Origin: Halichondria panicea
Taxonomy: Eukaryota > Porifera > Demospongiae > Suberitida > Halichondriidae
Length of the DNA stretch: 64,000 nucleotides
Assembly: GCF_963675165.1 (NCBI RefSeq)
Contig: NC_087386.1
Coordinates: forward strand, 980,931-1,044,930
Direction: 5' to 3'
The position numbers and the translations under genes were made by a program. The notes under the pieces are model-generated. The model made no database searches, was not told where the DNA came from, and saw only the letters and a list, made by a program, of their open reading frames with translations. This document shows, piece by piece, positions 1-42,282 of the stretch (position 1 is the first letter of the stretch; every line of letters begins with the position of its first letter).

Positions 1-3000
1 GCGATGGCAAACTTGTTTACCTCATCCAGTAGGATACTCGCCTCAGCTTCATTCACATTGTCGTCCACTTGCGTTACGACCTGATCTATACTAGAGCACA
101 CAAACACAAGGGGGTAGGGGTACAAGGGGTGTAGGGATGGGGGGTCACGATCAGACGGTGATATCAGGGGGGTATCGTAAAACAAGGACGAGGGGAGCTC
201 AAAGATGTCCGGATGAGATCGATAGTTGGTTACAAGCGTGGAGATGTAGAATTCTTGTCGGAGTCGCTTGTACGATGAGTGCAGTCGCTCTAGTAACGAA
301 GTAGCAAGACTGTACGATGATGGGACCTCTCCAAACACAAGCATCGCTGGACCAACCTGTATAATTATAGAGGAAGAGTTAGACATCAAAAATGCAATGC
401 CACAGAAACTGGATTATTACGTTTTGCATATGTGCTAATGGGGTCAAGCAGAGTTCTATATGCTTATATTCGAGGATGCGCATGCATGCAGTTATTTTCG
501 AGCCCCACCCAGTAACTGAATGTTTCTGTGACGAGGGATGACTCATTAGCTAGCTAGAAAGTGAGCGAGCTAGGCAAGCAGGCGATCCTGACTATAGATC
601 TATAATTATCATACATAATACAGTTCATTTGACCATGCAAGAACTGGAAAAAAATTGGTCTAAGTCCACCTCCGATTCAAGTCTCACATTCTCTCATTTA
701 ACAGCGTGCTCAAAGACCTTCCAGATGGATATCACCAGCTATATTGCTACCATGCACTGTACAAGCTATGGTTCATAGATAAACGTAATTAGCTGAATCA
801 ATTCTTTTTGAAAAGCGCTTCATTCTGAGTACAAAAACCTAGAGTTGAGCATGAGCGCTAATAATCCAGTTTATACAATACCAAAGTTAATTCCATGTAA
901 TTTTAGTTTCAATAAACCTCTAGTTAATTGATTTATGCGACATAGTAGTCGCTCGCATAGTTAGTACAGGAGCCCATAAAGGAAAGAGCATCTAACTCGA
1001 GGCTTACGTTTCGTAATTGCCGATAAAATAGCATTTCCTGATATGGAAGGACACTAAGCGCTAGTTAGTATCATGCATAAATTTCTAGACGATACCTTGA
1101 ACGCTATACCTTCTAAATATATTTTTCGGCACTTATATTTCGTGGAATGGCCTCTAAAGCATTTCTTTTTGCATAGCCATAATATTCGTGGGTTGACTGC
1201 TTACCAGAAGCCACACCTTTATTCTTTGCATGTTATACTAATTTTTCGGGGACTTAATTTTCATGTAGGATTGCTAACCCACAAAAACAACGAAAATTAA
1301 ACCCCTAGAAAATTTCGTACTACACGGTACATCCAGAATAGGCAATTTTCATCATGCACAAATACTACATACTGACTGACACACAAATCCTAAATGTATA
1401 TACCTGCTGATCTCCAGCAATCACAATCTTGGTTGTATCAGGATGAGCCAGAGAGAGGGGGGCAATAGCCTCAGGCTCCCGCATCTGGGCCCCCTCATCA
1501 ATCAGAATATGAGTGAAGAATCGATCACCAATATCTTTAACCAGCTTAGGACGTACCATCATGCATGTCGACATCACAAGATGATTTTGTTGCATGTCTA
1601 GAAATTGTCGGTATAAGAGAAAGCTTTTAATCGTTTTGTAGACACTATGCTTGAAGTCATGATCCCTCAGAATAATCACTTCAACATCATCCTCTTTGCC
1701 AGTCATCAAATTTTGATAGTGGTCATAGAAGTTATCCACAGACTCTCGCTGTTGAGTGCACACTAGAATACGAGCGGGTTGCTGTTTGATACGAGCTTCA
1801 GCAAAGAAGCAGCTGGCAGCCATTGCTAGGAGACGGGTCTTCCCAGAACCAAACGGCCCAACTATGATATTAGGTGGGCCTCGGGGGGAGCAGGTTAGAA
1901 TGGATTCTAATGCAGCAAATTGATCAGGAGAACAGAGGCTTTCAAAAGGCTTAAGATCGATTCTAATATCAATTGGCTCTTGGCTGAATAAACGAGGAGT
2001 AGGCAAAATTTTCTGGATCATAGGTATAACAGTTTTTGATACACACGACTTAAGATGTTTGAAATATGATTGATTTAACTCAAACTTCACCAAAATTCGT
2101 GTAAGATCCTTGCTTCCTGTCTCTGGAAGTCCAAGCTGTAATTTCTGCTCCTCTTGCGGTTCAAGCCCAATATACATGTACAGCTTCTCCGCAGTATGGC
2201 TGTAGTCGTCTCTAAGGATATGAGCTTTACAGATATTCACCTGGCCGCGGTTGAGGATACAAATTGATCCTTGACTGGCTTGTGTTGCATATGCCACTTG
2301 ATCTTCACTGATGGCTTTCAGGTAGCCATAGCGACAATATCGATCATCGGGTGGTCGTCTCAGAGCTGACGGTTTAAATTCATTCTGATAAAGAAACAAA
2401 TCATACTCTCCATTGCACCTGTGGGAGTTATAGTCAAACAATGATGGCCTATTTGGCAATACTGAAGATAATACAGAACTACATTATTATTATTATTTGG
2501 TGTGACTCTTGACCGTGTTAAAATAACTTACTTTTCATCAAGCACCCTTTTACGCTCAATTTTGTCCAGCTTGAGTAGTTCAGTGAACTTGATCTTATAG
2601 TTCTCCGCAGATAAGGGGGGGTGTACAACATCCCCACTAGAGGGAGAACGTGGGTCAGGCTGGACACACTTGGAGTTGGGGGATGGGGACATTTGGGACT
2701 GACTATCAGGATAAGCAAACTGGGAGGGAGTGGAGATTGAGTGTAATACAAGAATAGAGATGATTTGTGATAAGTGATTTCACTGTTGTTCAGCTCTGCA
2801 TAAATAATATATACGTACCTAATTAATATACTGCAAAAAAGTGTAAAAGGAGCTGCTACAAATATTCTAGTACCTTAGGAGTTGATACTCTACGATCTTG
2901 TTGATAGTCCACTGAGCTTTCAGAATGCGATACACTCAGACTTCGATAACCTCTTCCCCATTGAGCTGTTAATGGTGGGACCTGTTGCTGTGAACCGATT

Positions 3001-5120: not shown

Positions 5121-10531
<5,411 letters not shown>

Positions 10532-12820: not shown

Positions 12821-13705
12821 AATTTCAACTGTTTTATGAAAGCTTAGAAGGAATAGCATGCTCAAATCTCATATTTGGAACAGGCCTTCTCATTTTAAAA
12901 TACAAAGATCTAGATCAACGATACACCACTGTTTCGCATGTATTTTTTTTATTAACATCGATGTATAAAATCATAGCTCTGTGAACTGGGCAGGGAACTC
13001 CAGATGGCTGCGCAGAGCTGTGAGCACCTGTGAGGATGTGTGGGTGGTGGGGGTGTGAGTGGTGGATGGGGGTGTGTGTGTGTGGGTGTAGGTGGTTTTA
13101 GGTTTTAGTGTAATAAACGTACATTGTAGCATGGAAAGGAATACAGAATGAAGGAATTTTCGTGTGAACTACCCTTAATATTCGTATAGCTGACCTATTT
13201 GCACATCGGTAATTTTTCTAGTGATGCTCTCTACAATACGGAAATTTCAATCATACGTTGCTGGTTTTGATACCCAAAAAGCAATCATGTACTTTGTATC
13301 TTTTCTAAGTCTTGAAAAAATAGAAGAACTCAAATAAGATGACCCCAAGAGCAAACATGTCCGACTCCTTGTCTCCTCTCCCCTCCATTGCCTGCTCTGG
13401 ACTCTGGTACAGGAACGCCTCCCCCGTCCCCTCCGTCCCGAGACCTGTACAAGGGTTGGAATTGTTCACTTACAATCTTTCTTCCTTAGCCTCAATCCAC
13501 TGGACAGGTACTAAAGGTTGCATGCCTTATTGTAATCACAACGATAAAAAACTATAAAAGTTAATGGCTGTTAATAAAAAAAATACATGCGAAACAGTGG
13601 TGTATCGTTGATCTAGATCTTTGTATTTTAAAATGAGAAGGCCTGTTCCAAATATGAGATTTGAGCATGCTATTCCTTCTAAGCTTTCATAAAACAGTTG
13701 AAATT
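12821..13705. repeat. Perfect 137-bp inverted repeats flanking kinase fragments
   Basis: Arm 1 is 12821-12957 and arm 2 is 13569-13705. By eye they are exact reverse complements over 137 bp, beginning AATTTCAACTGTTTTATG. The 611 bp between them hold remnants of the last two kinase exons of unit H, so the arms interrupt that gene remnant. They could be the long terminal inverted repeats of one element, or two opposite insertions of one short element. No clear target-site duplication was found. Confidence 0.8.
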
Positions 13706-14350
13706 GGACCATCATAAATCTAAAAACGGCCTACTCTAATACTCTAAAAATGTTGGGCAGAGACGACCACATAATTGTTTCGTCCACCGAAATATTATTA
13801 GAACAGCTACGCACCAATTATTAGCTCTATATACTAACCTTAATTTCCTGTTGCATCACCATTAATTTTCATTAGTTGCCAGACCAAAGCCTCACTCACC
13901 ATCACGAGAGAAAAACACATTTGACGGGTTCAGGTCACGATGTACGAAGCCCTCCGCATGAATGTACATCAGTGCTTCCAGGATCTGTGTGCAGTACATT
14001 GATTTGTCAAATTTCATTTCATACAGCAAAAGTAGACGAATGAAGTGAAAGTTTTGTCAATGTACCGTATAGCGGGTATATTTCGAGGGTATAAATTTTC
14101 GCGGAAATGCCTTTAGAAACGTTTTCGGATTAAATTTTCGTGGAATAGCGCCTTTTTGCAGCGTGCATGCATGCGATACTAAGTTTGCGGTACATGCCTA
14201 ATCCACGAAAACCACAAACATTTTATACCCTTGAAATATACACGCTATATACGGTATATCACACACACATAGACATGTAGATCTATATCTAGCTGTACAC
14301 AAACTCACCTTGTGGAGGTGGCGTGGGCGTCCAGATGAGTATCATCTGAC
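12975..14350 (-). pseudogene. Unit H: decayed kinase tail related to unit A
   Basis: Fragments matching unit A occur in the expected minus-strand order. About 14306-14350 matches the end of unit A exon 8 ([11 protein letters not shown]-like). About 13895-13985 carries a catalytic-loop exon with [15 protein letters not shown], sharing unit A's unusual Asn after HRDL. About 13325-13447 matches the [19 protein letters not shown] exon, and 12977-13030 the start of the last exon. Intron sequence is also conserved with unit A (for example around 13085-13180), so the duplication is fairly young. The Gly-rich-loop, beta-3 and SPKEQ exons are absent and inverted repeats interrupt it. No helicase or zinc-finger remnant is attached. 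Confidence 0.75.
14063..14256. repeat. Short inverted-repeat element (TACCGTATAGCGGG family), copy 1
   Basis: Begins TACCGTATAGCGGGTATATT and ends with an imperfect reverse complement (TATACACGCTATATACGGTA). About 194 bp, no coding capacity. Related copies are at 17503-17745, 50236-50508 and, more diverged, 54484-54700; a partial one lies near 28598. These look like miniature non-autonomous DNA transposons. Confidence 0.75.
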
Positions 14351-14367
14351 ACTATAGGATAGAGCCA

Positions 14368-15330: not shown

Positions 15331-18300
15331 CTACAATACAGGAACCAAAGCTCTCTGCTTCTTGTTCACTTTCTTTGAGAGATTCCGAAGAGAACTATTC
15401 TTAGTTAACTCATTAGCAGTTGGTCTCTCGGCAGGGTTTGTTTCCAGCAAGAGCTTCACAATTCTCGTCACATTGAGAAAGTTATCCTCAAATTTGGAAG
15501 GGAATTTTAGCTTGCGCAAAGCTGACAGCACCTGTACAGTCGTGTGTGTGTGTGTGAGAGTGGGTGTATGTAGCGAATACAGTTGTGTTAAGGGGTATCA
15601 CTGGTATGTATATTTAAAGGGGGGGGGTATACGCAAGGTCTGACAATAAAACAATGCTATACAACTACACAACAAACTGGTAGTACCTGGTTTCTGGCCT
15701 CCATGGTAATATAATAGTGGAGCTCAAACAAGATGATGCCCAGAGCAAACATGTCTGACTTCTCATCACACTTTTCTCCTTTGACTTGCTCTGGACTCAT
15801 GTACAGAAAGGTTCCAGCCTGCATACTGCCTTTAGAGTGGCTATCTGCTGAACCGTGGTTGATAGTGTCTACACCTGTGGGGGCTGAATACCAAATATAG
15901 GCAGTACTCTTCAAAGGGTTGGCATGTACATGCGTGAAAGTGGCTATATAATTGTTAAATCTTTATACTGATTATAATTATGGCCCGTTGTTTTACGAAC
16001 CTCCATTTGGCATGGCCACTGTTCTCACTAAACCAAAATCTCCAATTTTTAAACCGTCCTCAGTACGAGAGAAAAAAACATTCGATGGCTTTAGGTCTCG
16101 ATGTACAAAGCCCTTCTTATGAATGCACACTAGTGCTTCCAGGATCTGTTATAATTATATAGTACAATTCTTTCAAGTTACACAAAAGCAGAATGTAAGT
16201 ATCGATCCTAACCTGTTTGAAAAAGCTCAGAACTTGGCTCTTAGTTCGGCTCTCTTCCTCACAAGTTTCATGGAGCCAGGTGTGCAATGTGCCCCTTTTA
16301 CAGAGCTCTGTCTGAATAAACAAGCAGGTTGGAGGATCAAGTGGAAGCGTTGGTTGGAGCGTAGCAACTTTTAATATCTTGAACTGAGAGGAGCCAGATG
16401 GAGGGTCGGCACCGTCACTGTGAAATGGAATTAGAACACCAATTAAGGACGAGCGTGTGATGTACATAAATTATATACTTCCAACAATTATATTGTGGTC
16501 TTTAAATTACCGACTTGAGACTACTGAGTCAGCAGTGTGAGAGCTCGCCTCATGGTCAGCAGAAACAACACGTGTGTTGGTGGAAGTTGTGGGTAATGTA
16601 TCTGTTCTGAAGAATAGGTGGAATGATACACAAACATCTGTTATAGCATCTTTGAGCACAAACTACTTAATCAGGAATATAACGTACTTGTACTCCATTG
16701 ACGATGAATCACTACTCTTCAGCTTAGACCACACCTTTTTCTCTCTCCACCCATCTGGAGCTTTTTCCATCCACGAATTGAAGTAGCGTACAATATGGGA
16801 GTGGTTCAGCTGAGCTAAGGTGGTAACTTCTCCCAACACCTTTTTTTGCTGCTTAGGGCTGTAAAAGGAGGCAAAAGTTACGAAGAGCATGTGCACATTG
16901 AAATTTTGATTCTGTATTGAACTTGAAAAATATTGTTTGTGTTAAAAGCACCACTATGCACAAGCTACAGCATTGATGAGTCGCTCACTTATCTGAGAGC
17001 CTGATTATCTTCAGTGCATAATCTGCCTGGTCCACCTTGTGTTTCACATGAAACACCACACCAAAACCTCCTTCGCCAATCTGCTTTGCATCATCAACAT
17101 ATTCGTCCAATCTATTGGTAGAATAATAAGTAACAAATGAAAAATCTGTCTTGCCCAGCCTGTTGCAATGCAATACTATCGATAGAAACTAGTGATTGCT
17201 CACCTGCTAGCAGCCTTTGCTCCAATACTACTGCTAGTCTAAAGAGGGTATTTACACACACTAGTCAAAACACATGCAGCCAAACATACAATGTAGTTTA
17301 CCTGTTTATTCAATGAGGGTAGAATTGAATCATCTGTACGTGTAAAAATGCGGAAAGTACCTATTCTCTTTGCCGATTCTCTTTCCTGCTGTCTTCTGAC
17401 AAACTCACGAAGATGGGGTGGTGTGGTAATCCTCTCTAAAGTTGTATCATTGACTGTAAAACAGAGTATATAGAGTATAATCATTGCGTCTAACCAAAGG
17501 CTTACCGTATAGCGTGAAATTTTCGTGGGGTGCAAAATGTTGCGTTTTTCGAGGGCAGAGCAGTTAACGTGAAAATTAAATCCAGGATAAACTCCAACGG
17601 ACCGGTATTTCATATGCAAAGCTATTGGTGGGTGTGGTTTTCTGGCAATAAAACGCGAATATTAGAACCCACGAACATTTCTGCTGAGGGCTCTGGAGCC
17701 AAATAGCGAAAATTTGTACCCGCGAAACTTTCCCGCTATACGGTATCATAATTATTATACTTACCAAATATATCTCCGAAACCAGGCACTAGCATCGTGG
17801 AGGAGTCCTCTGCCACAACCATAGATTGAATAGGAACCATAGGAAGGCGATTGGGAATGACCAGGCCTCCCTGTGTAAATGGTTGAAACACTCCGCGTTA
17901 TGATTTCGCGCTCGCGATTATTTTTGTTTTGACCGTACTCTGATTGTATTTCAACTGTTTCTAGCTTTCCTATGCACTAGCGATCACTCAGAGGCTGGGA
18001 GGTTACTCTAGAAAAGTAAGTTTACACCACTGACAAGCTCTAACTTGTCTAAGTCCGCTGTCTTTACTCTGTTTTTAGTTTTTGTTGAGTATAGCTTGAA
18101 TTACTCCATGTCAACTTTTCTCTTTCCCTGCTGCGAAGCCTAAACAGCAAAAGACATTGCTTGACTTGGTTATTATGTATCTAAGTGCTATATAGAATGG
18201 TTTCATGCCATGGATAAGCTTTACTGTTCATAAACGTTTGCAGTATAGTCCTTCAAACTGCTTTAGTATACTTTTAGACACACCACGGGCCTTGACCTCT

Positions 18301-19780: not shown

Positions 19781-19820
<40 letters not shown>

Positions 19821-20583: not shown

Positions 20584-20653
20584 CTTGTACTGGCCACAGA
20601 GAGATCTACCACTGCACTTGCACTCAAACAAGGCCCAGTGCGGCATGTGCGGC

Positions 20654-20733: not shown

Positions 20734-20734
20734 G

Positions 20735-21234: not shown

Positions 21235-21446
21235 CTACAACCTAGGAATGTAGTCATCTATGGACACTTCTATCAAAAGGTTCTGAAAAAACTCGTTCTC
21301 AGCTAAATTGTGACATGTTGGTCTCTCAGCAGGATCTGTTGCAAGTAATAACTTCACAACTTTCGTCACATTCGGAAAGATATCCTCAAAATTAGAAGGG
21401 AATTCCAGATTGCGCAAAGCTGATAGCACCTGTACAGTCTGTACAG

Positions 21447-21491
<45 letters not shown>

Positions 21492-21504
21492 TGTGTGTGT
21501 GTGT

Positions 21505-21537
<33 letters not shown>

Positions 21538-26100: not shown

Positions 26101-27502
26101 AGAATGAGCAACCTGTCGAAAAATTATGAGGAATGTACTAATACCAGTCCTGAGCAAACGAAAAAAACGAGCATACACCTAGGTACTCAGTGATGTGCCC
26201 AGAATTTTCAAGTGGTGGCTATAATTTTCCTATGTAGATAGGCCTGGCCAGGAGTAAATTTTTGTAGCGCTGGTTTTTTGGGTCAAAAAGTGGTTAGTAT
26301 ACACACACCACCGACCATGCAGTGTGGGCACATCCCTGCCATTATTATACATGCGTGCAGGATCCACTGTAATGGTCATGGGGGGTGGGACTCACAGGAG
26401 GGGGTCGAGGCGGTACTTGTTGAGGAAAACCAGTAGCAGGCCTGTTTTTGATATTGTGGGATGGAGACACACGTATTTGTCGCTGAGCTTCAACAGCTCT
26501 TTGTTGCTGAATTGGTTGATTGTGCGTTATAAATTGTGACTGATGCAAATATTATCGTACCTTAGGAGTTGATACTTTACGCTCTTGTTGATAGTCACCA
26601 CCCACTGATTCAGAATGAGTTGAGCTTTCAGAATGCGACCGACTCTCACTCCTGGAACGTGGATAACCTCTCCCTTGAGACTGCTGCTGTGGGCTGACTT
26701 GGCGCCTGAAACGGGGGGGTGGTTTCTTTGGCCACGTGGCTTGTGCGGGCGATGAGCCGGAAACAGCAGAAGTTGGTGTGTTGACAACTACATATGAAAA
26801 GGGGTTATCAGCAGTACATGTACACCTGATAAAACTCAGGGTTTCATCCAATGGGAGGGGGGGGGGGGGGGCAGAGGTTAAGTGCTTAACTCAACTACAA
26901 ACAGTTTAATTTTCCAATTATCTGCGACTACACATTTTTTGCGATTTTACTCTCATTCCCAAAAATAGCAGAAATTAATACCTGTGAAAATATATCACCT
27001 TATCAGCAAAATTAATAAGCAGAAATTCAATTTGCTTTTGGGAAGGATCGTGATGTCCTCCTACAAGGTCTTTGTGATTATATTTTGCCAAGCCGTTAGC
27101 ACTCACAAAGTTCAATGCTCGCAAATAATACGTACATCTACATGTATATAACTCACTTCCAATCTTGCTGCCACTTAACTGGGCATTCCAAGCCTTCTGC
27201 TCTGCCTTGCCGTGTGCATACGTACACTTGTCCCCTCGATAACACGATCCGTCCGCATTCTTACATAAGACAAACCCTTTCCCTGGGGGTGACTTCTTTG
27301 GCAATGGTCTGATTTTTTCCAGCATATCCTCATCATTGACTGCTACATGAATTAGATCTTTTACCGTGGAGGATTTGTGAGATGGTGAGCACTGGCACTG
27401 TGTGTTCAGGAGTTTTGTGTTCTTGGGGTAGTCTTCAAAACAATCCTTACAGACCAAACCATAGAAAGGCAAAGGTGCTTGTTTTGATCTTCTACGAGCC
27501 AT
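21235..27502 (-). CDS. Unit B: CCCH finger / HELZ-type helicase / PERK-type kinase
   Basis: Start ATG at 27502. Exon 1 (27157-27502) holds the Cys-rich module and a CCCH finger ([18 protein letters not shown]). An RS-rich linker exon is at 26561-26787, and an exon ending in the KFTELLKL motif at 25904-26112. A Pro-rich exon at 26396-26539, homologous to part of unit A exon 2, lies only about 21 bp from the previous one, so its use is uncertain. Helicase exons: 24809-25817 ([24 protein letters not shown]), 24236-24676 ([12 protein letters not shown]), 24044-24131, and 23484-23924 ([28 protein letters not shown]). Linker exons at 23353-23393 and 23256-23293 lead to a kinase spanning 21235-23140. 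It keeps GKGGFGVV, the beta-3 Lys in [19 protein letters not shown] and YMSPEQ. Looks intact; expected cytoplasmic, with no signal peptide or membrane segment seen. Confidence 0.85.
21448..21537. repeat. GT-dinucleotide microsatellite
   Basis: About 90 bp of nearly pure GT with a few GGGTGT interruptions, in the last intron of unit B. A shorter GT tract sits at the same place in unit C (about 15544-15556), so the tract predates their duplication and has expanded here. Confidence 0.9.
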
Positions 27503-28969: not shown

Positions 28970-31539
28970 TTACTTCTAAATTTTCTGTCAATTTCATCCT
29001 CTGCTAACTGAGCGTTCCAAGCCTTCAGCTCCACCATGCTGTGAGCATTACATGCAATCGTCACCATAACGTACGGCAAATCCAGTCTTCTTCATTCCGA
29101 TATACATGTAGACAAAACTTTATCCCTGGAGGTGGAAGCCTTTTTGGCAGTGGTCTGATTCGTTCCAGCATCCCGTTTTCATTGATAGACGCATGAACAA
29201 GCAATGTTTTGGAGAAACTGTGAGCTGATGAACACTTTTTGATCACGAGATCTTTGTTCCAGGGATTTAATATAAGACAAACCTCACAGACCAAACCATA
29301 GAAAGGCAGCTGTTTTGCATAGGCTATAAATTAGATTATGGTAACTGTTAGCATGTGACGTCATTTTAAATAACTCACTAATCTTCCAGTCGCCCTCAGG
29401 ATCTACTAATTGAGCATTCCAGGCATCTTGCTCCGCTCTGCTGTGCAAGTGTCCCCATCAGGACAATACTTAGTCCTACCACCTTTCTTACATAGGTTAA
29501 ACCATGTCCCTGGGGATAACCTTATCGGCAGTGGTCTGATTCGTTCCAGCACCCCCTTATCATTAACTGCCGCATGCACAAGCAATACTGTGTTGGATTT
29601 GTGAGACGATGAACATTTTGTGGTCAGGAGTTTGGTGTTCTTGTGGTCGGCTTTAAGACAATGCTCACAGACCAAACCATATAATCGTGCTTTCCTTGCA
29701 ATGACTATAGGAAAACAAATAATGGCAATAATTATTCTAGCTCACTATATGCATCAGCACTGAAAAATGCTAATTTTAGAACTCACTTCCAGCCTCTGCT
29801 AACTGGGCATTCCAAGCCTTCAGCTCCACCCTGTTGTGAGCATACCTACAAGTATGCCCAAAAGAACAAAACCCATCTAGATACCTACATTGGATAAACC
29901 TTCTCCACAGTACTTTCGCTGCTTTCACACATGGTTTCGCTATAGTAAATGGACATATTTGGCTCGAACCACCCCAGGCATTGCTAACCTCCTTAATTAA
30001 GCCACTAGAAGAAACAATAAGGACAGTCTTTTTGCCAAAATTGACTGGACAGAATGCCTTTGGTGATCTGGAAAGACAGATAATGGCACTCCCAGCCCGC
30101 CATGGGGGACTTGGTATAGCAAACCCGTGTGAAACAAGCCCTGGTCAGTTCACGATGAGCATGTCAATCTCAGCACCACTAGTCAGCCTGATACTTGACC
30201 AATCCGATATATACGAACCTACAATGAAGCAAGAGCAAGCCAGACTGAGGAACAATGCCAAAAAATTCCGCCGACAGATGGAAGCCAGGACAGCAAGTGA
30301 GCTAAATGAAGAACTACCAAACAATTTGAAAAAAATGGTTGGAATATGCTCAGAGAAAGGTACCTCAAGCTGGATAACAGCGCTGCCTATTGCAGAGCAT
30401 GGTTTCATGCTACACAAGGGAGCCTTCAGAGATGCTCTTTGCCTCAGGTACGGCTGGCGGCCTCAGAACCTACCCTCTCACTGTGTCTGTGGACTTCACT
30501 TCACAGTAGAGCATGCACTCAGCTGCTCTAGGGGAGGATTTCCAACAATAAGACATAATGAAATACGCAACATCACAGCAAATCTTATGAGCGAAGTATG
30601 TCCAGATGTGGGTATTGAACCAACCTTACAGCCTGTGACGGAAGAGCAGTTCCAACTTAGGACAACCAACCGCGAGGATGGGGCTCGCCTTGATGTTGTG
30701 GCCCAGAACTTCTGGAGCAACGATAGACAGAGTGCATTTTTTGATGTCAGGGTCTTCAACCCGTACGCACCTACCTATCGCCGCTCCACCATGGCCCAGA
30801 GCTACAGAAGAAACGAGATGGAGAAGAAGAGAGCTTATGAACAGCGTGTAAGAGAAGTCGAACATGGATCGTTTACGCCTTTGGTTTTCTCTGCTGCTGG
30901 AGGTATGGGTCCGGCTGCAGATATTGTCTACAAGAAACTAGCTTCAATGCTGGCAGAGAAACAGGACAAAACATACAGCACAACTCTGAATTGGATGAGG
31001 TGTAGGCTAAATTTCTCCCTCATAAGATCAGAGATTATGTGCATCAGAGGCTCTAGGAAGTCATTCACCACCACCACACCATGGAAGGCCTTAGACACTG
31101 GCACTATTGACCTAGCAACTCAAGAAGGCCGGGTGCTATCGGTCTGAAACATGTGTTTTCACCCAGGAACTTTATAAAATTATGTCACATGTTTTTGTTG
31201 TTTTTTCTTGGTTTGTTTTTTTGTTTTGTCTTTTGTCTTTTGTCTTCTCACTTGCAATAAGTATTATATTATCAGGAAAAAAAAAATAAAATAAAAAAAA
31301 TAAAATAAAATAAACCTTCTCCCTGGAGGAAATATCTTTGGCAGTGGTCTGATTTGTTCCAGCATCTTTTTATCATAATTGATTGCAACACGTACCAGGT
31401 TTTCTACAGAGATTTCGTGATATGGATCCTGTGAGCACTTCGTGGTCAGGAGTTCGGTGTTCTTGGGGTTGGCTTCAAAACATTCTTTACAGACTAATAA
31501 ACCATACAAAGGAATTCGTTTGGAAATTCTTTTAGCCAT
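28970..31539 (-). pseudogene. Unit G: zinc-finger pseudogene with three modules, split by a retrotransposon
   Basis: Start ATG at 31539 (MAKRISKRIPLYGLLVCKEC). The first module's finger is cut after IFPPGRRF by the insertion at 29907-31309. It resumes at 29906 as FIQCRYLDGFCSFGHTCRYAH and continues to a donor-like site near 29786. A second module (about 29406-29675, LYGLVCEHCLKADHKNTKLL) has an altered finger (CPDGDTC, then no His). A third (about 28970-29320, [20 protein letters not shown]) is out of frame within its finger region. No linker, helicase or kinase exon follows before unit B. The gene was a multi-finger sibling of unit F and is now broken. Confidence 0.75.
29907..31309 (+). mobile_element. 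5'-truncated non-LTR retrotransposon inserted in unit G
   Basis: Flanked by a 13-bp target-site duplication, ATAAACCTTCTCC, at 29894-29906 and 31310-31322. The 3' end is an A-rich (AAATAAAA)n tail. One open frame runs from about 29915 to the stop at 31145-31147. It is the C-terminal part of a reverse-transcriptase polyprotein: LTGQNAFGDLERQIMALPAR, then HGGLGIANP; a Cys/His cluster CVCGLHFTVEHALSC; then REDGARLDVVAQNFW and AFFDVRVFNP, which resemble a restriction-like endonuclease fold. This terminal domain is common in animal LINE polyproteins. The RT catalytic core is missing. The long open frame suggests a recent insertion. Confidence 0.85.
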
Positions 31540-31700
31540 TACTGCTAGGAGTGCTAGCTCCTGAAATGGCCTTTCTTGTGGACTGTACTCCTATAGGACC
31601 AGCCCCTCCCTTTGTTTACTGCAAAACACTGCATGAAGCCCATTACGTAACTACTCTCTCTTGCGCATGCGCTGCACTAGCCACTTTTCTCTCTGACTGA
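31540..31700 (-). promoter_or_regulatory. Upstream region of unit G with shared motifs
   Basis: On the minus strand this holds GGGAGGGGCTGGT (about 31593-31606) and, further upstream, GCGCATGCGC next to a TTACGTAA palindrome (about 31644-31672). The same block lies upstream of unit F (34036-34107). TGCGCATGCGC matches the NRF-1 consensus and TTACGTAA a bZIP-type site; both readings are from established vertebrate motifs, so use in this organism is inferred. Confidence 0.5.
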
Positions 31701-31849
31701 CCCGTAGATCACAACCATATAGATTATAGACTGACCATAGATAGTAAGGGAAGCTCATACTGTGAACTTTAATATCTATGATAATATCTATGGTCAAAAC
31801 ACATAGAAGGAATGTGCAGAAATGCCTGCAAGCAGGTTGGTATAATTTA

Positions 31850-32285
31850 CCGACAGTTCTATGGCCACTCGTCACTATAATGTTTAAGACAACTCTACAT
31901 CTCACTTTGTGAGATCAAAACTGAAATATGCTGCCCCTGTTTGGGATCCACACCAAAAAATAAATTCTCACAAAATAGAAAAAGTACGAAAGTTTGCCCA
32001 AGAAGATTGTACCTGAAACTATCATACCTTTACCAGGTAATAAATGGTAACTTTAAATTCCCTGATCCACCGCTGGAAAGAAGAGTATGCCCTCTCAATC
32101 TAAGAAGCACAAAAATATACAGTTTGAAAAACCAATTTGCAGGACAAATGCATATGCGAACTCTTTTTTCCCAAAAGCAATATCTATATGGAATGAACTA
32201 CCACTGGAGCTGCAGGAAAGTACATCGATTTTGTCATTTAAGAAAAATGTACTCTGTCACTTGCATTAGTATAATATTAGTCTTT
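31850..32285 (+). mobile_element. Decayed 3' end of a CR1/L2-like LINE
   Basis: Pieces in different frames encode VRSKLKYAAPVWDPHQK, then SHKIEKVRKFAQ, then NAYANSFFPKAISIWNELPL and QESTSILSFKKN. These match the typical end of LINE reverse-transcriptase proteins (LEYAS-VWDP, then F-P-I-WN-LP, then LE-FK). At least two frame breaks. Probably old. Confidence 0.65.
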
Positions 32286-32499
32286 ATCTTTAATTTGTAC
32301 ACGCTATTGTAAGTACTATATACAGGGCACACATTAGGTTAGCATAATATGCTACTAGTGTATCCATGCATTTTGCAGAACTATTAATAACTTATCATGT
32401 TTGCCATAAATACTGCAATTTGATTGGATATAGGAAATGTTCTATCCAACGTACTAGTTAGAAGATCATGTACTTTCATGTAGCAAAGATTAGGTAACT

Positions 32500-32640
32500 A
32501 CAAACACACACCGATCATCCCCAGTTCTGATATTCACTCAGGGAGAGATACTAAAAGAAGGCCCCAATCTCATGCCAATGGTGTTGCCCGAGAAAGTTGA
32601 CCTACAAAAGTACATGATATTAGATTAGTGACTTTGTGGA
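32500..32640 (+). pseudogene. Possible cytochrome c exon-2 remnant
   Basis: CACTCAGGGAGAGAT followed by GAAGGCCCCAATCTC resembles the intron-exon 2 start of the cytochrome c gene at 42871-42905, including the splice acceptor and the EGPNL codons. After about 35 bp the similarity is weak and out of frame. Its position past the 3' end of unit F suggests it travelled with a block duplication. The gap between this and 32924 shows nothing else recognised. Confidence 0.4.
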
Positions 32641-32924
32641 CAGAGTTAAGCTGTGCTGTGCACGGTGCAACACATTTCAGTTTACAAGTCTCATTGAGTT
32701 CTTCGTAATAATATGGGCATCTGTCTTTTCATATTAACATAAGAATTAATCATAAATCGTATCACAAAAGAGAAATAAGTGAAGGCAGGATGATCTAGGA
32801 GAGAATGCACCAAGAATAATATATCATAGCTAGCTTCTTTCTACAGTACAGGAACCAAATGGTACTACTTATAAGCATCAGCAGGAGCTATCTGTTTAGT
32901 ACAACGTGGGAATGTAATGTTTCT

Positions 32925-33995
32925 TTAGACTTTCTTCTCATTTTTTGGAAACATATCCAAGTAGAGAGCCATTAAATCATGAGTTGTTAGTGTATCGGCA
33001 TTTGGATCACTTCCCCATAGAAATGGTGGGAACCACTTCTGGAGAACGGCTTGGTGTCTGAAAGGGCAAGCCTGTACGTGTCTTTTTGGTCGCCTTGTCT
33101 TTGTTCGCGTCACTTGTGCATATGAAACAGCAGTAGTGGGTGTCAATGTGGAGGGGGAGATGGGTCTAAAGGGAGGGATTTCATTTTGCGCAGAAACTTT
33201 TTTAAAACCGAATTTGAAGGCACCTGGATGGACGTACTATAAATATACTGATAGAACAGATAGAATGACTCACTTCTCCCCCCTTGCTTCATTAACTGAA
33301 AGTTCCAAGCCTCCTGCTCTGTCTTGCTGTGAGCAAGTGTACAATCAAATGCATCACAACCCCCAGCTCCATTCTTACATACGAGAAACTTGTTCCCTTT
33401 ACATTGCCCACTCCTTGAAAATGGTCTGATCTCCTCCAGACTCATCAACCTTCCCTCATAATTGATTGCCACGTATATCAGCACTACTGTGGTGGATTTG
33501 TGGGACGGCGAGCACTTTGTGATCAGGAGATCAGTGTTGCAGGGATCGGCATAAAAGCAATCCTCACAGACCCAACCATAGAAAGGCAAGCACCTTGTAT
33601 ACACTAGAAAAATAGTGTGATAACAATATATTTGGATTAAGAGATAACTCACTACCTCTCTTCCAGTCAACCTCAGGCCGACGTAACTGAGTATTCCAAA
33701 CCTTCTGCTCCAACCTGCTGTGAGCATAAGTACAACTGCCCCCTCGATTACATGACCCACGTGCATTCATACACATGGAAAACCTCTTCCCTGGGGATAA
33801 TCTCTTAGGTAGTGGTCTGATTCGTTCCAGCATCCCCTCATCATTGACTGCTACATGTATGAGTAATACAATGGTGCATTTTTGAGACTGTGAGCACTTT
33901 GTAGTCAGGAGTTTGATGTTCTTGTAGTCGGCTTCAAAACAATCCTTACAGACCAAACCAAAGAAAAGAGGTATTCTTAAGTCGCTTCTATCCAT
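32925..33995 (-). CDS. Unit F: short two-finger protein of the array family
   Basis: Start ATG at 33995 (MDRSDLRIPLFFGLVCKDC). Exon 1 (33653-33995) has the Cys-rich module and CCCH finger CMNARGSCNRGGSCTYAH. Exon 2 (33274-33603) repeats both ([37 protein letters not shown]). Exon 3 (about 32925-33146) resembles the start of unit A exon 2 (TPTTAVSYAQ versus [13 protein letters not shown]) and ends in a stop at 32925. That gives roughly 300 aa of fingers plus linker, without helicase or kinase. The open frames suggest a functional short paralogue, perhaps an RNA-binding partner or competitor of the full-length proteins; that is inference. Confidence 0.65.
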
Positions 33996-34474: not shown

Positions 34475-36611
34475 CTAGAATACAGGAATGTACTCTCTCT
34501 TGGACTTTCTCACTTTCTTCTCGAGACTCTGAAGAGTCTTGAGTGTCGTCATCTCCAGAGCTGTAGGCCTCTTGGTCGGGTCTGTCGCCAGTAGCAATCT
34601 CACAATGCTCACCACCTCGTTAGGTAGTCTCTCTGTGAACTGGGCAGGGAACTCGAGCTGGCTGCGCAGAGCTGTGAGCACCTGTGAGGGTGTGTGTGAG
34701 GTGTGAGTGTGTGTGAACAAAAGTGTGTGGGAGGTTTTAGATTTTAGTGTCATAAGCGTACACTGTAGTATGGAAAGGAATACCGAATTGGTGCAAATTT
34801 TCGTGTGAACTACCTTAGAATAGTGATTGCATTGATAATTTCGATGATGCTTTACAATACAAAAAATATGAATAATTATGTCAATCATACGAAAATAACC
34901 CACTATATGGTAGTCAGTAATCACACATACAGAAACTAAAGTTATTATTGCTCGTTTCGTACTAACCAACAAAAAGCAATCATGTACATGTGTCTGCATC
35001 AACGTACTTTGTATCTTTTCTCAGTCTTGAAGAAATAAAAGAACTCAAATAAGATGACCCCAAGAGCAAACATGTCCGACTCCTTGTCCCCTCTCCCCTC
35101 CATTGCCTGCTCTGGACTCTGGTACAGGAACGTCTCCGCTCCATCCGTCCCAAGACCTGTACAAGGGTTGGATTTTAGCAAACCATCTGAAAGAGCTCGT
35201 TCTAAGCTTCATAAATCATAAAATTGTTGGAATTCAGAACTCTATTAAAAAGCCGACTCTAGAATTCTAAAAATGTTGGGGACCAAGCGAAGACTACCAC
35301 ATAAGTACACACGTTCAATAATAATACATACTAACCTTCCTGTGACATCACCAGTCCATTTGTTGTGAGACCAAAGCCGCCAAGTTTGAGACGTCCATCA
35401 CCACGAGAGAAAAACACGTTTGACGGGTTCAGGTCTCGATGTACGAAGCCCTCCCCATGAATGTACACCAGTGCCTCCAAGATCTGTAGATAGTATAAAA
35501 GAGCAACTACTGAAAATCGTAATTATAGCAAAGTTAGGCTTCCTTTATCAGGGTTTGTAAAATGTAACAGGAATACATTTCCGGCTCAGGCAGTACCTAT
35601 AGGCAATGGATACGACACGAGTACCTCGATTAGGCTTGCTTGGTCATGTGCAAAATTCAACGTAAAAATCATTGTTGCATGTGACTAATTAGCCTAATCG
35701 GGGTACTCGTGTCTGACCTCCTCCTCTGGGTTATGGACATTCCATTCAGAGATGAATTGAGTCAGCAAATACGTTACGACAATAACAAAGAAGCAAATCT
35801 AACGATACCTGTTTGAAGAAGTCGAGTACTTGACTCTTCTTCCTACTCTTCTCCTCGCAGTGCTCTAGTAACCAGGTGTGGAGTGTGTCTGTCCTACAGA
35901 GCTCCGTGGGGATGAACAGGAACGTTGGGAGAGGGCCAGAGCTCTCACTGCACGAGAGCATATAGACACAATGAATGCTAATCTCCAAATATAATATCTT
36001 GAAGGTCCGAAATACGTAATTTCAGCATTATTTTTGTGATACAGAAAACCCATTATTTTTATAAGGCCTGAAGTGGACATGTTATAATTATTATTGCAGA
36101 AGAACAAACATGTGTGTACAGTACGATCGTATTATAGAGACTCACATAGAATGATTGCTCTTGAGCACTGACCACACCCATTTCTCGTCACACCCTTCAT
36201 TAGCTCTCTCCGTCCAGGGGGTGTGGTAGCGTACAATGTTGGGGTGGTTCTGCAGTGTCACCAACCCCTTCACTTCCCGTAGTACTGCCTCTTGCTCCTT
36301 AGGACTGTGAAATATTGAAAGTAATTTTTTAAAAGCAGGAAAACTACATGCACATGTACTCGTACTAACCTTGTGAAATTGTACTTGCAATGACACACTA
36401 AATATGCACAGTACATGATTGTACACTAGCTGGCCAGGAGTTTGGGGGGATTGTCCTACAATGGCTACTTACAGCAGGCAAAAACACACTGACTCACTTG
36501 TCAGAGAGTCTGAGTGCTCTCAGAGCGTAGTCCTCCTTGGCACGATACACATGGAACAACACACCGACACCACCACTGCCTATCAGGTTCTTCACTTCGT
36601 AGTCATCCAGT
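34475..36611 (-). other. Kinase-fold domain of unit A with inactivating substitutions
   Basis: The Gly-rich loop is [12 protein letters not shown]. The beta-3 strand reads DYALRALRL, with Arg where siblings have Lys (YALKIIRL). The catalytic loop is [11 protein letters not shown], with Asn for the usual Lys. The DFG motif is replaced by LKLGGFGL, so the Mg-binding Asp is Gly. The activation-loop end QSPEQAMEG, the [15 protein letters not shown] helix and the [12 protein letters not shown] tail are kept. The Ser/Thr-rich insert exon of the siblings is absent. The frame is fully open, so this looks like a selected pseudokinase rather than decay. Loss of phosphotransfer is inferred from established kinase residue rules. 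Confidence 0.8.
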
Positions 36612-36970
36612 CTACAGGGGAAGGAATGGATGGGTTAGTGTTTACAGAACACCAATACAAACACACCAATACAAACACATCACATCTCCTACGGAGCTCT
36701 GACATACACCTGTGGTACTACAAACCATTCTTTATGCTTACCTGCACTCAGGAGTGATATCTTTAGGTGTAGCAACAATGGCTCTCTATAAAAAAGAAAT
36801 AGTCAATTTTATGCGATTCACATTCCAGAAATTGTTCGTACCTTTGATGTGCTGTCTGAAGCCAATGAAACAGATTGTTCAATCATGTCACCTGTAACGT
36901 AATACATAGTGAATAAATTAATATCACACGCACGCACACACACACACGCACGCGCGCGCACACACACACA

Positions 36971-37049
<79 letters not shown>

Positions 37050-40000
37050 AGAGCTGTAACTCACCTTGTGGAGGTGGTGTGGGCGTCCTTCTATGAGTAT
37101 CATTGCTAATAGAGCCTGTAAAACAAATCGAATCAGAGCCGACCGCTGCAAACACACCTCGATGATCAAGTCTTGTCTCCATTCCATTCAGGTGACCATC
37201 TGTCAATTCCCGAACCGGGGACACTCTCATCTCCCCTCCGCTCCACACACCAGACGAGGGGGGCGTGAAATTAAAAATAGCCACAACTTCGCTATCGGTG
37301 TCTGAGTACAAACGTTGTTTTCGTTTTCTCTGAGATGTTACATTTTGTCCGTTTTCATTTGTTGACGAGGCATTGTTTGCTTGAGGCGAGCGCAACATCG
37401 GTGGTGTTTTCATTACAGAACTATACGACTGGTGAGAAGGCGGTGGTTGCTGAGGAGGTGCGGCTTCTTGGTTTAGTTTACTCTCTGAGTGACCTTGTGG
37501 TACAGCTGCTGGCAGTGAGCGGACTGAAACAGGTTGAGCAGGATGATTGCTTCGTAGAACAACACTCACCGACTGTACTGGTTGAGAAGGATGATCGCTT
37601 CGTGGAACAACACTCACCGACTGTACTGGTTGAGAAGGATGATCGCTTTGTGGAACAACACTCACTGACTGTACTGGTTCAGAAGGATGATCGCTTCGTG
37701 GAACAACACTCCCCAACTGTACTGGTTGAGCAGGACAATCGCTTCGTGGACTATCCATTTGAGAGGCCGGTGGATGGAGTTCCTCGCCATGGAGATATTG
37801 AGATACGGTAGGTACTGTCGGTGTAGACGGCAATTGCTCTGAATAAACCGTTGTCATTGGCTGTGTTAGCTGAGAAGAAGCTGCCATTTTATAGACCTGA
37901 GCTGGTGCTTGTGAGGAATGCTGTTGGCTTGGTGTAGAGCTTCCAAAAAGGGCTGGAAATAATCGTTGTATTTCGTCCAGATCTTGATTGCTTTGCTGCA
38001 TTGGAGGTGCACTGTTCGGTGTACTAGGAACAACTTGAGTGAAAGCTGTCGACTGTTGATTTTGAAAGCTGTGCCCAATCTGAGTGGTTTGAGATATCTG
38101 AGAAGGAGGGGCAGATTGAGGATAGTGCTCTACTTGGTTTTCATATATGGAGGGCGTGGGCGGATTATGCACTCTATTCGTTGGTGTAGTGGCTGGTGGC
38201 GAAACTAGTAGAGGGAAATCATCTTCATTGGGCATACCAGCAGCTTCACTATCAGAGGTAGAGTCCTCTTCATGTGTACGTTCAAGCACAAGTGCTCTGA
38301 GCTTCGACTTAATAGATTTCGCTTTCTTTTTGGTCACGTTTAAAGATGGAGGGATAAAAAAAGAACCGTGCTCGAGACATCTCTTGAGATAGTTACTCCA
38401 AACTTTTCCTTTCTTTCCGTATTTCTCCATCATGGTTTGCTCCGTCTTGAGTAGTAGGAAAGGGTTACCAATGGCAACAACGAGTGATTGGGCTCGAGTG
38501 AGAGCTGTGTTGAATATGTGTCTATCGCAGAGGCTCTTAGTGGGGTTACAGGTTGAGGCATCAGAGTGGGTCGGCTCAGAGGTGCTTAGGAACAGAGCTC
38601 GGAACTCCCTACCTGTAAGGGAAATCAATTGTCTCAACTTGTGGAATCTACATAGATAGTAGACATTCCGAGAAGCTACATTGCAAACGTTTTTTTTTGT
38701 AGGGCTTTAAGTAAAGGTATGCAGTTTTATAATGAGAATCAATTATCTAAGCATTAGCGGGGTATAAATATTGACATGAACAGCATAACTACGTGTATCA
38801 CAGTTACCTTGCATGTCATACGTGGGTAGTCTCCGTACAGTCTTCAGTTTGCCAGACAATCTTTTCTCAAAAATCAGTTGGTTGGCTGTCGTTAGCTACA
38901 TAGAGAGAATGGTGTCCGCGAGTTAAAATTAACAACAAATACACTTGTAACTCATTCGGTAGTTGCGTGACAATTTCCAATTCTAATTTTTTCGTTTTCT
39001 TTGGGTATAACAACCACTCTAAATGCCAACAAATAACATTTTATACCACGTACCCCTCCAAAATTATTCTATTCTCACACACATAAAGTAATAGTTTACA
39101 CACACTTTCTAACCTGTGGTCTTGATGGACTCATGATGCAAGCTTGAGAGAGGTCCACAGGCCCCCAGCTAGCGGTAGGCCAACTCTTGGCAAACTTGTT
39201 CACCTCATCCAGCAGGATACTCGCCTCAGCTTCATTCACATTGTCGTCCACTTGCGTAATATCCTGATCTATATTGGAGCACACAAACACGAGGGGGTAG
39301 GGGTACAGGGGGTGTAGAGATGGGGGGTCACGATCAGACGGTGATATCAGGGGGGTATCGTAAAATAGGGACGACGGGAGCTCAAATATGTCCGGATGAG
39401 ATCGATAGTTGGTTACAAGCGTGGAGATGTAGGATTCTTGTCGGAGTCGCTTGTACGAGAAATGTAGTCGCTCTAGTAACGAAGTAGCAAGACCACACGA
39501 TGATGGGACCTCTCCAAACACAAGCATCGCTGGACCAACCTGTAGGGGGAAAGAAAGGAAGTACAGTAGTTAAAAATGCAGTAGTACAAATAAATCCAAC
39601 TATGGTAAGGTAAGGGAGTCTTGTGTTTTAACATTTCACATCCGGTAAATTTAGATTGCTTTGGTCACATTAATACTGACATGTACTACGGATCAGGCAA
39701 AGGTCATCACACCTACCATACCTGATGCTGATCTCCAGCGATCACAATCTTGGTCGTATCAGGATTAGCCAGAGAGAGGGGGGCAATAGCCTCAGGCTCC
39801 CGCATCTGGGCCCCCTCATCAATCAGAATATGAGTGAAGAATCGATCACCAAGATCTCTAACCAGCTCACGTACCATCATGCATGTTGACATCACAAGAT
39901 GATTTTGTTGCACGTTGAGAAATCTTTGGTAAGAAAGAAAGCTTTGAATCGTTTTGTAGACATTCTTTTCTTCTGTCCCGATATGCTTGAAGCCACGATC

Positions 40001-42282
40001 CCTCAGAATAATCACTTCAACATCATCCTCTTTGCCAGTCATCAAATTTTGATAGTGGTCATAGAAATTATCCACAGACTCTCGCTGTTGAGTGCACACT
40101 AGAATACGAGCAGGTTGCTGTTTGATACGAGCTTCAGTAAAGAAGCAGCTGGCAGCCATTGCTAGGATACGTGTCTTTCCCGTACCAAATGGCCCTACGA
40201 TTATATTAGGGGGACCTCGGGGGGAGCAGGTTAGAATGGATTCTAATGCAGCAAGCTGATCAGGAGAACAGAGGCTTTCAAAAGGCTTAAGATCGATTCG
40301 AATATCAACTGGCTCTTGGCTGAACGTACGAGGAGTAGGCACAATTTTCTGGATAATATGTACGGCTGCTTTCGATACACAAGACTTGAGATTTCGGAAA
40401 TACGAATGCTTTAACATGAACTTCACAACAACACTTATTCGTGTAAGATTCCTGCTTCCCGCTGCTGGAAATCCATGCTGTAATTTCTGCTCCTCTTGGG
40501 CTTCAAAGCCAATATACAGCTTCTCCTCAGTATGGCTGTAGTTGTCTCGAAGGATATCAGCTTTACAGATATTCACTTGGCCGAGGTTGTGAATATAAAT
40601 CGAGCCTTGACTGGCTTGTGTTGCATATGCCACTTGGTCTCCGCTGATGTCTTCCAGGTAGCCATAGCGACGATATTGAACATCGGGTGGTCGTCTCAGA
40701 GCTGGTGGTTTAGTCCCGTACTGGTAGAGAAACAAATCATATTCTCCATTGCATCTGTGGAAGTGGTCAAACAATGACAATGTCACATAACATACTTGGC
40801 AGTAGCACTAATAATTATAGTTTTATGCTACTATTTGCTAAGAATTCTCCAACTTACTTTTCTTCCAGCACTTTCTTATGCTCAATTTCCTCCAGTTTGA
40901 GCAGTTCAGTGAACTTGCTCTTATAGTTCTTCGTAGACAAGGGGGCATGTATAACGTCAGGATTACCCCCCCTACTGGACGATTGGGGGGTCTCTGGACT
41001 GGGAAGGGGGGGCGGGAGACGTAGGTGTGTACCCCCCCTACTGGACGAATGGGGGGTCACTGGACTGGGGAGAGGGGGCGGGAGACGTAGGCGTGGCTGG
41101 ACATGTTTAGTGGAGGGTGGTGACATTGATGGCCATTCCTCAGACTGAAGAGAGAACAGGGAAAGTTTTCATACTAAAATATTACACAACAGTTATTGTG
41201 ATGTGTCAAGACTACAGAGATAAAATGCTGAACACAGATGTCTGCATTACCACAACACATTCATTATCTAGTGACGGCCAAAAAAATCATATAATGCAAA
41301 CCTGCTGCTGTTGTGGAGCATATACATTGTGACCAGTATTAATTGTTGGCATGGAGATAGCGGCTGGAGGGGGGTAGTGGTAGAGAGGGGGTCTCTGTGG
41401 CTGACCACCAGGATGGGCAACCTGGGGTATAAGTGGAGTATGTGCTCGAAATTAGGGTGTGTGACTTTCAGTTTGGACTTCAAAGAAATAACTTTAGTAA
41501 TGAATCTACTTAAAATGACTATTCTACACACGCAGTTGTACCTGTGGATGTCCGTATGGGGGCTTGTAATGACTGTGGGGGGTAGGAATCATGGGAGGGG
41601 GTCGAGGCATACCAAACTGTTGATGAAGTATATGTTGAGGATTACTGAAAACAGGTCTGTTTTGCTGATTGTGAAGTTGTCGCTGAACTTCAAACGGTGG
41701 GAACTGTTGTTGCTGTGGTCTGATTTGTTGCCTGAAAGGAGGAGCCTGTCTCCTTGGTCGCATAGCTTGTGCGTATGAAAAGCCAGACAGAGCGGTAGTG
41801 GGTGTGAAGGGAGAGATGGGACTGAGGACAGGGAACTCTTCCTGTGTAGGGACCTTCTGCTTCCGTGGCGATGGGAGGACTTTGATGGGACCTGTATAAA
41901 CAGGGACAAATTGAAAATGATAAGAATTTGAACCACAAATGGGATATAGAAACTCACTTCCTATCTTGCTGACACCTTCAGTGTCTAACTGAGCGTTCCA
42001 GGCCTCTTGCTCCGCCTTGCTGTGAGCATACGTACAGTGGTTCCCACGATAACACGACCCGTCCCCATTCTTACACAAGATGAACCTCCCTGAGGGTAAG
42101 CTCCTGGGCAATGGTCGTATTCGCTCCAACACTTCCTCATCATTGATAGCCACTTCTACAGGCACTACCACAGGGCATGAACATTCTGTGGTCAGGAGTT
42201 GTGTGTTCCAGGGGCTGACTTCAAGACAATACTCGCAGACCCAACCATAGAAAGGAACTTGTCTGGATCTTCTAGTAGCCAT
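34475..42282 (-). CDS. Unit A: CCCH finger / HELZ-type helicase / PERK-type pseudokinase fusion
   Basis: Sixteen exons join in frame to about 1,728 aa: 41958-42282, 41542-41891, 41302-41421, 40858-41144, 39722-40754, 39114-39539, 38808-38895, 37065-38612, 36842-36891, 36742-36785, 36498-36611, 36146-36304, 35809-35947, 35336-35483, 35008-35156, 34475-34681. Order: Cys-rich module and CCCH finger ([18 protein letters not shown]); Pro/Gln linker with [10 protein letters not shown]1 helicase with [47 protein letters not shown] and [17 protein letters not shown], very like HELZ; a long Ser/Pro/Gln linker with 16-aa repeats; a kinase domain. HELZ proteins are CCCH-finger RNA helicases; the kinase addition is not part of any family I know. 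The kinase lacks key residues (see next entry). No signal peptide or membrane segment seen. Expression as one transcript is inferred from frame and order. Confidence 0.85.
35614..35713. repeat. 100-bp foldback element in a unit A intron
   Basis: GACACGAGTACCTCGATTAG at 35614 pairs with its reverse complement ending at 35713, with one mismatch over 23 bp and a loop of about 54 bases. It lies between kinase exons 13 and 14. Probably a miniature inverted-repeat element. Confidence 0.7.
36925..37046. repeat. CA-dinucleotide microsatellite in a unit A intron
   Basis: About 120 bp of CA with CG and TC interruptions, in the intron between exons 8 and 9. Open frames through it on either strand are artefacts of the repeat. 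Confidence 0.9.
37505..37760 (-). repeat. 48-bp coding minisatellite in the unit A linker
   Basis: Four to five tandem 48-bp units encode the 16-residue repeat [16 protein letters not shown] with small changes. It keeps the frame. It lies in the Ser/Pro/Gln-rich linker between helicase and kinase-like domain; units B and D have no equivalent. Confidence 0.85.
40955..41095 (-). repeat. 66-bp tandem duplication in unit A exon 4
   Basis: The exon encodes [20 protein letters not shown] and then [20 protein letters not shown], an in-frame 22-residue duplication in the Pro-rich linker before KFTELLKL. Confidence 0.8.

Follow-up and report, generated by a model that had tools for sequence, protein, structure and literature searches.

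Along the minus strand of a stretch of DNA from the sponge Halichondria panicea, exons for CCCH-type fingers, a helicase and a protein kinase succeed one another in the same order several times over, which raises the questions of whether these modules form single proteins, from which known proteins they come, and what such proteins would do. The stretch analysed, hereafter the window, comprises 64,000 nucleotides (C10:980,931-1,044,930, C10 being contig NC_087386.1), and the genome searched comprises 131.5 Mb in 39 contigs. Unless a contig is named, positions are window coordinates, obtained by subtracting 980,930 from the C10 position; those below zero refer to flanking sequence on the left of the window. 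Using the array's own exons as tblastn queries, we recovered on the minus strand between -15,938 and 42,282 five CCCH-helicase-kinase units (D, B, A3, A4 and A5), in all of which the three modules are collinear, and one CCCH-kinase unit (C). A sequence-only reading of the window had reported three such units, A (our A3), B and D. The tblastn map confirmed their collinearity, and position 42,282, at which that reading bounded the array, proved to be the start codon of the D model; the count itself was too low, as A4 and A5 bring the complete units to five and the helicase-less C comes in addition. We propose that every unit codes for a single protein, consisting of a HELZ2-like N-terminal half, linkers and a cytosolic PERK-like eIF2-alpha kinase, which would be RNA-directed and work like PKR, and we give this proposal a probability of about 0.58. 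The architecture is well supported; the function is what we infer from the sequence of a single genome.

The tblastn spans of the units are 42,279-34,478 (D), 27,499-21,238 (B), 10,525-5,124 (A3), 4,349 to -3,885 (A4, a complete unit that crosses the left window edge) and -8,126 to -15,935 (A5, also complete and entirely left of the window). Unit C matched with its CCCH module at 20,562-20,218 and its kinase at 16,941-15,334, and tblastn gave no helicase match between the two. Two weak kinase matches, at -28.6 and -38.4 kb (44% over 32 aa), were all that the 34 kb of the left flank gave, and none was seen in the 32 kb of the right flank. Between A4 and A5 the contig contains 200 Ns in a row (-6961 to -6762), which represent a gap or a withheld stretch. 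A 192-bp repeat occurs in two copies, 91% identical, just downstream of A3 (4728-4919) and of C (14810-15001). Further to the right, 56904-58891 is occupied by a tandem repeat of about 39 bp inside a 387-bp higher-order unit, C-rich on the plus strand with a GC skew of about -0.29.

Spliced models of all six units were curated by hand. All of them are open, without an internal stop, and their introns are GT-AG in 88 of 88 cases (15 of 15 in D). They comprise 16 exons and 1,433 aa in A5, 19 and 1,588 in A4, 16 and 1,220 in A3, 14 and 1,150 in B, 13 and 683 in C, and 16 and 1,728 in D; the B model omits the CCCH exon and runs from the helicase on, starting at 26112. The 16 phase-compatible exons previously claimed for unit A do give an A3 protein without a stop, but only since the model exits the CCCH exon early. 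Pfam recognizes in the A5 protein the domains Pkinase (E 4.2e-44), AAA_12 (4.4e-19) and AAA_11 (7.3e-15), all far beyond chance.

The D gene (34475..42282, minus strand like all that follow unless marked) encodes CCCH, helicase, linker and pseudokinase segments. Its CCCH exon (41958..42282, including the start codon) has the pattern C-x6-C-x5-C-x3-H, with Pfam zf-CCCH_4 at E 0.012, below gathering. Four helicase exons (40754-39722, 39539-39114, 38895-38808 and 38612-37065) with a HELZ2 helicase 1-like exon structure follow, two of which have open frames matching AAA_11 at 4.7e-17 and AAA_12 at 4e-12; then come linker exons of 50 bp (36891-36842) and 44 bp (36785-36742) in phases 1-0-2 and the pseudokinase exons (34475..36611; Pkinase 5.9e-36). 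CCCH-only modules lie between D and B (29157..33995), with tblastn matches at 33989-33645, 33598-33281, 31536-31318, 29901-29779, 29699-29427, 29451-29341 and 29318-29157. Among them, on the plus strand, is a 435-aa open frame (29840-31147) with zero Pfam matches, which we take to resemble the end of a retrotransposon protein. Unit B (21235..27502) has its CCCH exon at 27499-27134 by tblastn, its helicase part in an open model at 26112-23484, linkers at 23393-23353 and 23293-23256, and an active-type kinase at 23143-21235. Unit C (15331..20646) combines a CCCH-like exon, linker exon 2 (17238-17204) and an active-type kinase, without a helicase. A remnant of a further D-class pseudokinase with the motif HRDLN lies at 12971..14017. 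Unit A3 (5121..10531) has its CCCH exon, as modelled, at 10531-10275, its helicase at 9457-7284, linkers at 7232-7192 and 7129-7095, and an active-type kinase at 6976-5121. The part of A4 inside the window (1..4418) holds CCCH exons with four motifs (4418-3135) and helicase exons (2418-1404 and 356-1), and the unit extends leftwards to its kinase near -3.9 kb.

Against solved structures the A4 kinase gave 55 matches at E up to 1e-20, and the best 19 are eIF2-alpha kinases: 17 are named as such, and the other two, 1zxe and 9bf3, bear general names and were taken by us as GCN2. PERK scores 219.5 bits, GCN2 162.7, HRI 146.7 and PKR 144.5; the weakest of the 19 reaches 133.7 bits, and the next structure, NEK1, 98.6. 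The A5 kinase has the identical 19 structures on top, and then NEK1. A motif scan found YALK, HRDLK and DFG kept in five of the six kinases (A3, A4, A5, B and C). Members of the eIF2-alpha kinase family carry an insert between beta4 and beta5, which measures 73-127 aa in these five and 14 aa in D. All three catalytic motifs of D are changed (to YALR, HRDLN and GGFG), and we class it by sequence as a pseudokinase. An eIF2-alpha-kinase-like domain had been read in each of A, B and D: the catalytic motifs are intact in A3 and B, and D is without the catalytic residues.

We also built a kinase tree of 13 rows, which included PERK, GCN2 and, as outgroup, three kinases from the sponge's own genome, HRI and PKR being left out. 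The array kinases form one clade (96/98), and array, PERK and GCN2 group against the three other kinases (96/94), with PERK, GCN2 and the array not separated from one another. The genome has a separate PERK-like kinase on contig C2 (3,170,220-3,170,636; 44% identity), the best non-array full-exon match, whose gene has a phase 0 intron after FFEQ; the array has one after FFKQ, likewise in phase 0. Judged by scores and this small tree, the array kinase is a member of the eIF2-alpha kinase family, as had been proposed, and a placement outside that family was not seen. The narrower label of a PERK-type kinase stands as far as the family and the best score are concerned, and the tree leaves PERK and GCN2 unseparated, so that an ancestry from PERK rather than GCN2 is suggested by bit scores and one common intron, not by the tree.

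An eIF2-alpha kinase domain could nonetheless have been put to another use: the fusion may be real and yet act on another substrate or as a scaffold, with the array engaged in ordinary RNA turnover or in the handling of microbes. That D is a predicted pseudokinase would fit this alternative, as would the behavior of two HELZ2-annotated transcripts of the sponge Dysidea avara, which are reported to be lower on exposure to symbionts than on exposure to seawater microbes (PMC11229196). We regard it as unlikely, though worth serious attention, given the catalytic motifs and insert kept in five of the six kinases and the wide margin by which both queried kinases, A4 and A5, match the eIF2-alpha kinases.

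The N-terminal half leads to a different protein. Helicase motifs II-VI are present in all five helicases, with the variants EGREF and SRAL in B, and Walker A (GKT) is legible in the helicase alignments. Related loci occur on contigs C3, C5 and C17 of the sponge's own genome, and tblastn found no kinase match in 50 kb at C3, 20 kb at C5 and 20 kb at C17. The predicted genes on C5 and C17 have the order CCCH, helicase 1, RNB, helicase 2, and the CCCH exon of the array matches both in tblastn (4e-10 and 2e-8, respectively). The C3 locus (4,476,091-4,483,195), which possibly represents one or two genes, contains two tandem helicase-1 units followed by one RNB and one helicase 2, and gave no CCCH match in tblastn. 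Pfam detects RNB at all three loci (C3 2.6e-57, C5 2.2e-52, C17 2.9e-57), AAA_11 in each helicase 2, and OB_HELZ2 in C3 at 1.2e-06, slightly under the cut-off.

The helicase 1 exons of A5 measure 1,033, 429 and 88 bp, as compared with 922-1,043, 414-426 and 79-91 bp in the C3, C5 and C17 genes. The exon that follows is of 408 bp in A5; it reads into RNB in the second C3 unit, where it has 3,628 bp, and in C5, where it has 3,478 bp, and the models split it at 901 bp in C17 and at 855 bp in the first C3 unit. A helicase tree of 12 rows groups the array with helicase 1 and sets helicase 2 apart (100/100). By these sequence criteria the array helicase is HELZ2 helicase 1, which narrows the HELZ-like assignment made earlier, and the kinase occupies the place of RNB and helicase 2. 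Taken together, exon structure and tree therefore suggest that the array resembles a HELZ2 gene severed past helicase 1 and spliced onto exons of a kinase. Searches with the helicase alignment yielded 63 pattern matches in a prokaryote genome collection and 113 in IMG/VR, with zero confirmed relatives in either.

In all five units two short exons, the linkers, connect helicase and kinase, and their phases (1-0-2) are the same throughout. In A5, A4, A3, B and D, respectively, linker exon 1 measures 41, 41, 41, 41 and 50 bp and linker exon 2 measures 35, 35, 35, 38 and 44 bp, the differences being multiples of three. The intron before linker 1 is, in the same order, of 87, 84, 51, 90 and 173 bp, and a promoter plus start exon would therefore have little room. 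None of the five helicase exons is closed by a stop ahead of the used donor. Linker exon 1 has to be entered in phase 1, the phase provided by the helicase exon 51-173 bp upstream; in A3 the usual donor is deleted, and linker 1 is reached in frame from a donor further upstream. Linker exon 2 is without methionine in A3, A5 and D, and in-frame ATGs are found in linker exon 2 of A4 and B and in linker exon 1 of D. As the methionine positions differ among the units, there is no private kinase start common to them. Poly(A) signals between helicase and kinase are absent from four of the five units, with two in the 902-bp intron of A5, and are uninformative because they are equally absent within 600 bp past the kinase stop in four of five. 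Over 14 pairs the linkers have a mean dN/dS of 0.90, a value that does not demonstrate constraint on them.

As a second approach we used a simple dynamic-programming gene finder, written for this analysis and trained on the array's domain exons to the exclusion of the linker exons (34 blocks, of which two had no open frame and were dropped and the others contributed the first frame that was open, giving 4,605 codons). Initial penalties of 7 for a start, 2 for a stop and 9 for an intron merged the 60-kb region into two genes and were then reset to 4.5, 2.4 and 11, values chosen by a rough prior calculation, which gave ten genes; all break costs refer to this setting. The helicase was never separated from the kinase in any unit. 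The predicted gene ends at the kinase stop in B, C, A3 and A5, runs on into the following CCCH exons in D and runs past its own kinase in A4, and the genes of B and A3 begin further upstream than the CCCH exons of these units. Separating helicase from kinase costs at least 8.8 in D, 2.3 in B, 6.1 in A3, 6.0 in A4 and 3.8 in A5. Over the 15 junction introns the cost is 2.3-16.7, as compared with 1.5-18.4 at 44 introns within helicase or kinase, which served as positive control. A break after the kinase costs 0.0 in B, C, A3 and A4 and 1.5 in D, and because the value for D touches the lowest within-domain cost (1.5) the break costs are supportive only. The open models, the linker phases and the break costs favor a single gene spanning the modules, in line with the earlier proposal of one gene, and most firmly so for helicase and kinase.

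The alternative would be two interleaved tandem families, namely a CCCH-helicase gene followed head to tail by a separate kinase gene, which were duplicated together and never made a fusion protein. The distance that separates a kinase from the CCCH exon following it is also short in three of five cases (489, 676 and 775 bp, the other two exceeding 4 kb), which, along with the in-frame ATGs in the linkers of A4, B and D and a linker dN/dS near 0.9, can be cited in favor of separate genes. This arrangement is nevertheless improbable, as it has to contend with helicase exons that no stop closes and that supply phase 1 so close upstream, with the lack of a start codon common to the units, and with a junction break cost as high as that within domains.

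The attachment of the CCCH module to the helicase varies among the units. Motif scans detected the CCCH pattern in A5, A4 and D, and visual inspection of the A3 and B ORFs showed it there as well; the finger of unit C has a shorter first spacing and departs from the motif pattern. In Pfam the A4 finger passes gathering (zf-CCCH at 1.3e-06 on two of its modules), and those of D and A5 score below it. The gene finder put the cost of a CCCH/helicase break at 7.1 in D, 5.9 in B, 0.1 in A3, 6.4 in A4 and 5.5 in A5, and that of a CCCH/kinase break in C at 2.2. The A3 finger is readable (ORF 10540-10256), with the frame broken right after it by one TAA, and given a break cost of only 0.1 it is not securely attached. 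At its exon 2 acceptor B has an insertion of 2 bases when compared with A5, on account of which its CCCH-helicase link is left unproven. The predicted link is thus weak in A3 and B, and doubtful for B.

Pairwise dN/dS was computed with unit C left out of the helicase set and B out of the CCCH set, omitting pairs of fewer than 8 codons and the infinite linker dS of the pair C-D. The means are 0.44 for CCCH (10 pairs), 0.28 for the helicase (10 pairs, all within 0.22-0.33), 0.31 for the kinase N-lobe (15 pairs) and 0.23 for the C-lobe (15 pairs, all within 0.13-0.31). Helicase and kinase are under purifying selection. The description of the cluster as fast-evolving is not borne out by the coding ratios (helicase 0.28, kinase 0.23-0.31); it is the module content that varies, in CCCH number, in the absence of the helicase from C and in the pseudokinase of D. 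Between D and the other units dS is 0.29-0.30 for the helicase and 1.3-2.4 for the kinase, and helicase dS is uniform across the 10 pairs (0.29-0.37); this disparity and uniformity point to exchange or gene conversion between modules. A broken D-class pseudokinase copy and a CCCH exon lie at C10:1,220,582-1,222,759, some 200 kb away from the array, and a copy of a kinase exon, 76% identical and interrupted by a stop, is dispersed to C1:8,583,980-8,584,162. As HRDLN recurs at 14.0-13.9 kb, within the remnant, and again in the broken copy at C10:1222 kb, the pseudokinase class probably predates D. That the fusion was multiplied by unequal crossing-over into an array that is by now mostly non-functional is very unlikely, since the remnant at 14.0-13.0 kb, the missing helicase of C, the N-terminal lesions in B and A3 and the broken copies on C10 (1222 kb) and C1 (8584 kb) are outweighed by the low dN/dS in 10 of 10 helicase and 15 of 15 kinase C-lobe pairs and by six open models of 683-1,728 aa.

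If each unit does encode one protein with a HELZ2-like half and an eIF2-alpha kinase, one transcript would be produced per unit, and the CCCH-helicase 1 half would be the RNA trigger, which binds foreign or transposon RNA and thereby gathers kinase domains. These would dimerise, autophosphorylate and phosphorylate eIF2-alpha, upon which translation would stop, a PKR-like working assembled from different parts. The variants in the array (differing CCCH number, the helicase-less C and the pseudokinase D) may heterodimerise or differ in their targets. According to one study, HELZ2 is interferon-stimulated, reduces LINE-1 RNA by means in which helicase activity counts more than RNase, and recognizes either the sequence or a structure of the L1 5'UTR (PMC9839780). 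A second source has eIF2-alpha kinases activated as factors bound to their regulatory domains favor the active kinase dimer, and states that vertebrates possess four of these kinases and no more, PKR being found only in vertebrates (PMC5025754). The joint reading of an RNA trigger with translation shut-off is one that we infer by combining the behavior of HELZ2 (PMC9839780) with that of the eIF2-alpha kinases (PMC5025754).

It is conceivable, at somewhat less than even odds, that an animal presumably lacking PKR built an RNA-triggered eIF2-alpha kinase by swapping the nuclease half of HELZ2, an antiviral and antitransposon helicase, for a PERK-type kinase, the array of active and pseudokinase variants being an independent, helicase-gated equivalent of PKR. 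Were this true, RNA recognition would have been coupled to translation shut-off more than once, here starting from the LINE-1-restricting HELZ2, and a further, helicase-gated architecture of animal eIF2-alpha kinase would be added to the four reported in vertebrates. The combination of modules had been thought undescribed, and no description of a helicase-eIF2-alpha-kinase fusion was found among the matches listed in open PMC full texts, a scope outside which lie subscription papers, preprints and animal sequence databases; a sponge paper (PMC8242945) leaves helicase and eIF2 unmentioned in the portion consulted.

Among the known systems, GCN2 belongs to the same eIF2-alpha kinase family (162.7 bits with A4); the HisRS-like and RWD domains are GCN2 domains, and neither had a Pfam match in A5. 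PERK, which has a membrane segment, is the closest solved kinase (219.5 bits with A4), and is comparable in the beta4-beta5 insert and, through the PERK-like gene on C2, in one common intron. For an ER luminal domain or a membrane segment A5 gave no match at E up to 1 in a search by Pfam alone. PERK carries an ER luminal sensor (PMC5025754) where the array has CCCH and helicase modules. With PKR the array likely has a logic in common, that of an RNA-binding half joined to an eIF2-alpha kinase, whereas the PKR kinase scores lower (144.5 bits with A4) and the dsRNA-binding domain that is a feature of PKR had no Pfam match in A5 at E up to 1. RNB likewise had no Pfam match in A5 at E up to 1, and each unit has one helicase in map and models, confirmed by Pfam for A5, as against two in HELZ2. 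HELZ2 and the array are alike in the CCCH module and in helicase 1, which has the exon structure of the C3, C5 and C17 genes; what follows is an RNB nuclease with helicase 2 in HELZ2 and an eIF2-alpha kinase in the array. The array may be viewed as a natural domain swap, in which a nuclease effector would have given way to a translation brake behind one RNA-reading half.
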